A DNA stretch of 50,947 bases from an uncultured SAR86 cluster bacterium (GTDB lineage: Bacteria > Pseudomonadota > Gammaproteobacteria > Magnimaribacterales > D2472). How positions within the stretch are numbered: the stretch's first letter is position 1; every line of letters begins with the position of its first letter. The notes beneath the pieces are model-generated. The model saw only the letters and a program-made list of their open reading frames with translations, was not told the origin of the DNA and ran no database searches. The stretch lies in the NCBI GenBank assembly GCA_902563835.1, contig CACEZB010000001.1:106217-157163 (forward strand), in the 5' to 3' direction. Positions 28,826 through 49,020 of the stretch are shown here, piece after piece. A program made the translations under genes and the position numbers.

Positions 28826-28874
28826 ATGTTCTCTCCCTAGTTTTTAATGTGAAGAATTATCTTTTAAATAAGAT

Positions 28875-28884: not shown

Positions 28885-28975
28885 GATTGACTATTTTATA
28901 TCAAAAAAACAAATTTTATCTATGATTTTAACTTCAAAGATATTATTATCCTAGAAAGCAAATGGGGAAATAAAT

Positions 28976-48194: not shown

Positions 48195-48265
48195 AGCATT
48201 TCTCCATAAATAATTTTAAAAAAGCATTATACATAAAAAAAACTTGTTTTTTATTATAATTACTA

Positions 48266-48293
48266 TTGATAATTAATTATAAGTATATATAAT
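48266..48293 (+). promoter_or_regulatory. Strong candidate sigma-70 promoter
   Basis: TTGATA (48266-48271), a 16-base spacer and a perfect TATAAT (48288-48293). The expected start is near 48300, exactly at the 5' arm of the hairpin described next. Bases 48195-48265 hold only AT-rich sequence and presumably the fadB-like promoter on the other strand. Confidence 0.65.
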
Positions 48294-48298
48294 AATAA

Positions 48299-48377
48299 TT
48301 GTCAGCACTCCTCTCCCCCTATTTGATTATGCTGACAACTCTGGATTGTGGAGGGTTTTTAACCCTCCATTTCTTTT
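48299..48377 (+). ncRNA. Candidate small RNA or structured leader with intrinsic terminator
   Basis: From the predicted start near 48300 the transcript folds into a hairpin with arms TTGTCAGC (48299-48306) and GCTGACAA (48331-48338), closing a 24-base loop that includes CACTCCTCTCCCCCT. A 10-base linker follows, then the terminator hairpin at 48349-48369 and a U-rich tail. The size (about 78 nt), promoter placement, C-rich unpaired loop and terminator are the layout of a trans-acting sRNA. CUCCU in the loop is the anti-Shine-Dalgarno core. Alternatively it is an attenuator for the downstream peptide and peroxidase genes, because CTCTCC in the loop can also pair with GGAGGG of the terminator. 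Family not recognised. Confidence 0.6.
48349..48377 (+). terminator. Rho-independent terminator
   Basis: TGGAGGGTT (48349-48357) and AACCCTCCA (48361-48369) form a perfect 9-base-pair stem with a 3-base loop, followed by TTTCTTTT (48370-48377). It is the only textbook intrinsic terminator I found in the window. On the plus strand no gene other than the candidate RNA precedes it. Confidence 0.85.
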
Positions 48378-48393: not shown

Positions 48394-48480
48394 ATGGAAA
48401 AATTTAAGGCTAATATTGAAATAATTTTGTTAACAGTTATTTTTATATCATCTCTAACTGCAATAACTCCAATTTCTTAG
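48394..48480 (+). CDS. 28-residue predicted membrane peptide
   Basis: ATG 48394 to TAG 48478-48480, 28 codons: a charged N-terminus (MEKFKANIE), one hydrophobic segment (IILLTVIFISSLTAI) and a short polar end (TPIS). GCGAGG lies 7 bases before the ATG. The gene sits between the terminator and the peroxidase gene, which starts 15 bases after it. The single-helix layout and ribosome-binding site suggest a true small membrane protein, but a chance ORF in AT-rich sequence cannot be excluded. No family recognised. Confidence 0.5.
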   Translation: MEKFKANIEIILLTVIFISSLTAITPIS

Positions 48481-48495
48481 TAATATAATTAATAT

Positions 48496-49020
48496 ATGAA
48501 CAAACTGTTTTTAGTAATAGTACTTTTTACATCCTTCTATTCTTATAGCTGCTCTTATCTGCTTGATACAGAGATGAGACTTTTGGACTCAACTGAAGAA
48601 TTAAACTTATGTGAATATCAGGATAGTGTCTTATTAATAGTTAATGTAGCAAGCAGATGTGGGTATACATATCAATACGCGTCGTTACAAAAACTTTATG
48701 ATAAATACAAAGACCAAGGTTTTGTAGTTCTAGGCGTGCCTTCAAGAGACTTCTTTCAGGAATATTCTGATGAAACAGATGTTGCTGAATTTTGTTCTAC
48801 TGAATATGGAGTCAACTTCCCAATGTTTGCAACTTCAAAAGTTACTGGAAGAAAGGCAAATCCATTATATAAAAAATTACTTGAGGAAAGTGGCGTAAGT
48901 CCAAGATGGAATTTTAATAAATATCTAATATCAAAAGAGGGTAAAGTTGTTTCTACTTATGGATCTAAAGTTAAACCAGACTCTAAAGAACTTATTGATG
49001 AAATTGAGAAACTTTTATAA
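48496..49020 (+). CDS. Glutathione peroxidase family protein, exported
   Basis: A 174-residue thiol peroxidase with an N-terminal signal (about 1-18). The peroxidatic cysteine is C55 in NVASRCGYT, and the WNFNKYLI motif supplies the tryptophan and asparagine of the catalytic tetrad. The glutamine position is not conserved: FPCNQFGGQEP of classical enzymes reads GVPSRDFFQEY, so asparagine-glutamine is replaced by arginine-aspartate; bacterial relatives with PSNDF are common. The reductant in the periplasm may be thioredoxin-like rather than glutathione (inference). It may be cotranscribed with the small peptide gene upstream. Confidence 0.88.
   Translation: MNKLFLVIVLFTSFYSYSCSYLLDTEMRLLDSTEELNLCEYQDSVLLIVNVASRCGYTYQYASLQKLYDKYKDQGFVVLGVPSRDFFQEYSDETDVAEFCSTEYGVNFPMFATSKVTGRKANPLYKKLLEESGVSPRWNFNKYLISKEGKVVSTYGSKVKPDSKELIDEIEKLL

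Follow-up and report, generated by a model that had tools for sequence, protein, structure and literature searches.

The window, by which we mean the whole stretch of 50,947 nucleotides analysed here, comes from an uncultured SAR86 cluster bacterium, a member of one of the commonest groups of uncultivated bacteria in the surface ocean, for which the listed genomes are about 0.7-1.8 Mb in size. Towards its end lies a promoter followed by a predicted RNA of approximately 78 nt, which comprises a hairpin with a C-rich loop and an intrinsic terminator, and behind which stand a very short open reading frame (microORF) and a glutathione peroxidase gene (gpx). The features are as follows.

48246 to 48265, plus strand: AT-rich element 5' of the -35 box, consensus about TTTATTTTATAAATA (alignment of 34 copies; upstream rows of 64)
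48266 to 48271, plus strand: -35 box, TTGATA
48266 to 48282, plus strand: imperfect dyad TTGATAAT-NN-ATTATAA, a candidate operator overlapping the -35 box (pattern search)
48288 to 48293, plus strand: -10 box, TATAAT
48299 to 48338, plus strand: 5' hairpin with a 9-bp stem (folding, covariation), predicted transcript start near 48299-48301
48308 to 48319, plus strand: C-rich loop segment CTCCTCTCCCCC, the proposed seed
48348 to 48377, plus strand: intrinsic terminator, stem 48349-48357/48361-48369, then a T tract (terminator scan, folding, covariation)
48394 to 48480, plus strand: 28-codon microprotein ORF with a single hydrophobic segment (MEKFKANIEIILLTVIFISSLTAITPIS), conserved after the terminator
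48496 to 49020, plus strand: glutathione peroxidase family gene (PF00255, E 1.6e-27)

A conserved promoter, hairpin and terminator

The promoter, TTGATA-16-TATAAT, carries 11 of the 12 consensus bases, is the joint best in the 1.2 kb scanned, and lies exactly where a sequence-only reading of this DNA had placed a near-consensus promoter. Promoter-like sites as a class show no excess over this 1.2 kb, with four found against a shuffle mean of 6.4. The match is nevertheless not a chance one, because TTGATA is near-fixed in position upstream of 64/64 copies examined, and the best -10 match follows 16 bases on in 59 of them. The AT-rich element in front of it is also kept among relatives. When the dyad pattern was sought in 60 genomes, 33 of the 39 listed sites were the promoter of this RNA; within genus g1 the NN centre is variable and the flanks are constant. 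Set against consensus sequences of the Fur, PerR and FNR type, the half-sites look like those of Fur/PerR boxes but are spaced differently. A promoter closely like that of the RNA (TTGATATTTAATTATAAGTATTTATAATAAT in L035) also precedes a cupredoxin-like gene in three other loci (L035:930-1020, L036 and L037), followed in L035 by an alternative oxidase, and it is possible that a common regulator acts on both kinds of promoter. On the minus strand, a further promoter match, CTGACA-18-TATAAT (48305-48276; 11/12), is directed towards a FadJ/FadB-like gene, its -35 box sitting within the stem of the RNA.

Folding pairs 48299-48307 with 48330-48338; the sequence-only reading had the hairpin in the right place, but its eight base pairs and 24-nt loop become nine and 22. 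The loop core is predicted to be accessible, its unpaired probability averaging 0.91 over 63 copies, and is among the best-conserved stretches of the RNA across 64 aligned copies. The label given to it at the outset, the anti-Shine-Dalgarno core CUCCU, fits less well than "C-rich": CTCCCC, present in 62/64 copies, describes the seed better than CTCCTCTCCCC, present in 48/64. The terminator consists of the perfect 9-bp stem noticed earlier at this place, a UUU loop and one additional G-U pair, followed by TTTCTTTT; a terminator scan found this one against a shuffle mean of 0.3. The 81-nt RNA as a whole folds at -27.8 kcal/mol (z = -6.5), and none of 200 shuffles reaches as low.

The original proposal hinged on conservation of the two stems in relatives, where both are kept, with compensatory changes. 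Across the 64 aligned copies, 98.0% of cells in the two stems hold standard pairs, compared with 37.5-57.3% in slid versions of the structure; compensatory change affects 13/15 pairs, which 0/500 shuffles reach, and changes on both sides occur in 58 cells against 7.2 in shuffles, all of these pairing statistics being biased towards the structure by an alignment that was fitted to a covariance model. Comparison of the copies confirms the element as real, and the first observation of it as right, and demonstrates at the level of sequence that the promoter is conserved, that hairpin and terminator both covary, and that the hairpin keeps open a C-rich loop which hardly varies.

Behind the terminator, an ORF of 24-35 aa is found in 56/64 copies examined, and the order of microORF and gpx relative is the same in 56/56 of these main copies, including 6/6 from family f4 despite a different upstream gene (f1 is the family of the window's genome; f2, f3 and f4 are other SAR86 families). 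Wherever the flank reaches, rpiA follows gpx on the opposite strand, the exception being L216, which has no rpiA match. The microORF has a median dN/dS of 0.18, obtained by comparing without gaps 30 equal-length sequences from g1, g2 and g3 (256 usable of 435 pairs), and neither the window microprotein nor one relative matched any family in Pfam or NCBIfam. A recognisable relative of it is present in three of the six f4 copies (L215, L217 and L220); in the other three (L216, L218 and L219) its position is taken by a different ORF of 34-35 aa. In the window, 16 bases separate the T tract from the ATG of the microORF, and 15 its stop from gpx. Given this short spacing, microORF and gpx are probably read from the promoter of the RNA by read-through of the terminator, barring a promoter hidden inside the RNA. 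The RNA is thus a leader too, and for this conserved operon of microprotein and gpx no other leader is plausible. By-eye inspection of the loop against the microORF's own Shine-Dalgarno found no consistent pairing pattern.

Distribution across SAR86 and copies that stand alone

With 135 bases of the element as the query, BLAST matched 32/36 f1 genomes strongly (E below 1e-13), the window's own counted, and none of 24 order-level relatives reached E 0.001 or better. A pattern scan of genome contigs, the gap setting of which overlooked copies with shorter loops, returned 21 stretches; six contained the whole element, and four of these six are titled uncultured SAR86 cluster bacterium. A first covariance model, built from 34 copies and run over 203 genomes of the SAR86 order, matched 124 of them at E at most 0.01. 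Within f1, 96/107 genomes were matched, one match (G111) proving on reading to be a terminator alone; by score (E at most 3.1e-5) the element is present in 95/107, and reading covered one copy or more in 52 of these 95. The twelve f1 genomes without it are G006, G019, G022, G028, G095, G106, G111, G115, G117, G118, G121 and G161, among which only G095 is given as 90% complete. Matches in f4 were weak (18 genomes), and the six that were read all had TTGATA, hairpin, C-rich loop and terminator. Ten f2/f3 genomes also gave weak matches, and the five read there were terminators only. A second covariance model, applied to 369 genomes sampled across the class, produced seven matches, three of them in SAR86 and none a true copy outside it; the other four were, on reading, terminators without the C-rich loop.

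By these searches the RNA is conserved over much of marine SAR86, and it seems to have gone undescribed so far. No title on the element was found in the open-licence literature on SAR86 small RNAs or Hfq, or, among the matches listed, on marine small RNAs. The sequence-only reading had recognised no family in it, and nor did Rfam, which at gathering score had no match in the window and, in 15 related loci, found three tRNAs only. Matches below threshold to SSRC38, LhrC, TD-1 and MicX were far under their cut-offs and were taken as chance. A phage origin was considered and rejected: GCACTCCTCTCCCC occurs in 70 viral stretches, of which four have a matching stem or a nearby GGAGGG and none has both (the candidate L119 has the stem without the GGAGGG arm), and BLAST against phages gave five short AT-rich matches only.

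Copies independent of the downstream genes also exist. Seven solo copies without the microORF were read (L031, L034, L209, L210, L212, L214 and L231), and one genome (G144) has a solo copy only. Beside each, a convergent open frame on the minus strand ends at most 7 bases from the end of the RNA, this end having been set approximately in L031 and L034; in both loci scanned, L031 and L209, the frame is an Exonuc_X-T_C (exonuclease I C-terminal domain) gene. All seven retain the C-rich loop; the letters of stem and terminator drift. Since the loop is kept with no gene on the same strand to attenuate, a pure attenuator does not explain these copies, and their position next to a convergent gene favours action in trans. 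A tRNA gene lies close by in 3/3 solo loci scanned with Rfam, and the combination of tRNA and convergent frame around the copies at L031:846-921, L034:1081-1154 and L212:1248-1323, which belong to three genera, suggests one old insertion site. The gene upstream of the solo copy in G160 (L209:224-739) is, like those described above, a cupredoxin (PF00127). An eighth extra copy, the third in G154 (L232:1012-1090), may be a decaying paralogue or contamination: its loop is shortened, and an early stop interrupts its microORF.

Hfq and candidate targets

No Hfq (PF17209) was detected in 16 SAR86 genomes of f1 and f4, 15 of them at least 90% complete, with a model that matched in 5/14 known genomes used as a control. 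Potential pairing partners of the loop were sought as GGGGAGA-N2-12-ATG in ten f1 genomes, giving 108 sites, at least two of which are the RNA's own antisense, against 60 in the reversed control; 90 loci were inspected (30 returned and 60 fetched). However, GGGGAGA-N-ATG is enriched more strongly in ten f2/f3 genomes that yielded no copy of the RNA, at 189 sites against 68 reversed, which shows that G-rich ribosome-binding sites also occur without it. Hence the genome-wide excess of GGGGAGA before ATG was rejected as proof of targets, as it is stronger in genomes that lack the RNA.

Individual genes recur among the starts inspected in f1, namely those for a DUF3604 protein (PF12228) and an NAD formate dehydrogenase (NF005750, above cut-off), which were chosen because three and two of their genes, respectively, matched GGGGAGA. 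Relatives of both were sought in 27 genomes, and the closest 18 of 30 and 15 of 21 were read. The ribosome-binding site contains a G-run, either GGGG or GGGAG, in 14/16 readable DUF3604 genes (18 rows, two unreadable) and in 12/15 formate dehydrogenases, starts having been corrected by eye in two rows.

A set of 347 orthologue pairs from two 400-kb stretches, in G016 and G012, gave a second approach. As a background for the counts above, 13/347 genes carry GGGG in the ribosome-binding site in either genome; nine pairs have it in both, where 0.49 would be expected. Within a stricter set, pairing with the loop at -12 kcal/mol or better was predicted for 6/329 pairs, compared with a mean of 1.9 for shuffled loops; 4/300 shuffles equal this, and 6/200 do as well when CUCC is kept, though -12 is one of five thresholds and one of the six appears to involve an internal start. 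At -8, -9, -10 and -11, the loop is equalled by 23, 5, 8 and 5 of 300 shuffles, and by 23, 5, 18 and 9 of 200 that keep CUCC. An earlier run with all 347 pairs gave 14, 5, 2, 1 and 1 of 100 shuffles from -8 to -12. The in silico target search that had been proposed for the loop thus has a mixed outcome, in that the loop beats most shuffles, but with modest statistics and against the grain of the f2/f3 control.

The best pairing orthologue pairs include formate dehydrogenase, metK and a GcvT-family protein, which is closest to DMSP demethylase, under the model cut-off (262 vs 410 bits), and which has a G-run in its ribosome-binding site in 14/16 rows. Two such sites were recorded in the window.

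28831 to 28837, minus strand: candidate target site GGGAGAG in the metK ribosome-binding site
28964 to 28967, plus strand: candidate target site GGGG before the TTG start (28976) of transketolase

The metK G-run is found in 7/7 g1 genes read and 9/29 rows overall, and that of transketolase in 8/27 readable of 29 rows, several starts being uncertain. The genes for the GcvT-like protein, formate dehydrogenase, the DUF3604 protein and MetK can on this basis be named as candidate targets.

How the RNA may act

The model that best accounts for these observations, to which we assign a probability of a little under 0.6, is that of an Hfq-independent small RNA, the loop of which pairs with G-rich ribosome-binding sites, while read-through expresses the operon behind it. 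One promoter would yield a short terminated RNA of about 78 nt; its C-rich loop would act in trans and independently of Hfq, pairing with ribosome-binding sites that are rich in G, and would thereby lower translation of the targets, the likely ones being genes of one-carbon and methyl-group metabolism (the DMSP-demethylase-like GcvT, NAD formate dehydrogenase and metK) together with the DUF3604 protein. Part of transcription would pass the terminator, as the gene spacing implies, and lead to a 28-aa membrane microprotein and glutathione peroxidase, so that a single promoter would feed both the small RNA and a small operon. The promoter, the covarying stems, the near-invariant loop and the solo paralogues all speak for the small RNA that the sequence-only reading had put forward, although the attenuator it had named as the rival is also partly right.

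Comparable RNAs are found in distant lineages. The Gram-positive Hfq-independent small RNAs RsaE/RoxS and FsrA direct a C-rich unpaired segment against Shine-Dalgarno regions; this segment is the likeness, the sequences having been compared through Rfam only. A closer parallel is offered by 6C/B11 of mycobacteria and other Actinobacteria: mycobacteria likewise have no identified Hfq, and the cytosine-rich loops of B11 are reported to pair there with ribosome-binding sites (PMC10470900). Shared are the short RNA, the C-rich loop, the pairing with ribosome-binding sites (here proposed) and the failure to find Hfq; in contrast, B11 has two C-rich loops, and the SAR86 RNA one plus a terminator. 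The phylum also differs, the 6C model of Rfam was unmatched, and homology is not claimed. PmaR of Agrobacterium likewise exposes a stem-borne, accessible loop with several C-rich regions (PMC6234868), but mostly activates, has most of its predicted sites away from the ribosome-binding site, and belongs to an unrelated lineage. The most economical account is a small RNA with a C-rich loop that needs no Hfq and derives from the terminated leader of the microprotein-gpx operon; it would work like mycobacterial 6C/B11, without being a member of that family by the sequence tests made.

If the small RNA model is true, control by C-rich loops would seem to have arisen independently in Gammaproteobacteria lacking Hfq, and there would be a handle on the control of DMSP-type, formate and methionine metabolism in such streamlined cells. 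The covariance model itself provides a marker that can be counted in metatranscriptomes. A tentative extension, for which the odds are clearly against, is a dual-output locus, in which a regulated promoter drives both a chaperone-free small RNA tuning one-carbon and methyl-donor metabolism (DMSP-type demethylation, formate oxidation and SAM synthesis) and the microprotein, as a new family, with gpx, linking peroxide defence to methyl-carbon flux.

Among the alternatives, the one that survives best, while still unlikely, is that the element acts in cis only, as a leader and terminator that set transcription of microprotein and gpx, with no targets elsewhere; in a variant, read-through may change when the loop takes up a protein or a strand rich in G, the terminator 5' arm being one such strand. 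Transcription attenuators and terminated leaders can give rise to small RNAs, and these likewise have a terminator between promoter and short operon. The position of the terminator fits such a role, the order of leader, small ORF and gpx being constant, even in f4 behind a different upstream gene, and the 16- and 15-base gaps leaving little space for another promoter. Furthermore, the terminator 5' arm has GGAG or GGGG in 64/64 copies and could meet the C-rich loop. Yet the predicted ensemble of the window RNA lacks the 6-bp pairing between loop and arm that the sequence-only reading had suggested for an attenuator of the next two genes; what stands of this suggestion is the place as leader of a conserved operon. 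G-rich 5' arms are also found in other terminators (8/47 in two 400-kb stretches, two of the eight being this RNA's own), neither a conserved leader peptide nor a known ligand fold nor a stable alternative antiterminator was seen here, and the seven solo copies retain the loop beside a convergent frame, with no microORF to control.

Rather less probable is that the RNA, with no base pairing, serves to store or to decoy a protein with affinity for C-rich single strands; a near-invariant, accessible loop would suit this as well, but the gene-specific G-rich ribosome-binding sites suit base pairing better. It is highly improbable that the locus is simply a strong promoter whose terminated leader is stable and leaky, conserved for control of gpx transcription. 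Promoter and RNA are indeed conserved together, but the compensatory changes in the hairpin and the near-invariant loop indicate that the RNA itself is under selection, and the solo copies also count against this reading.
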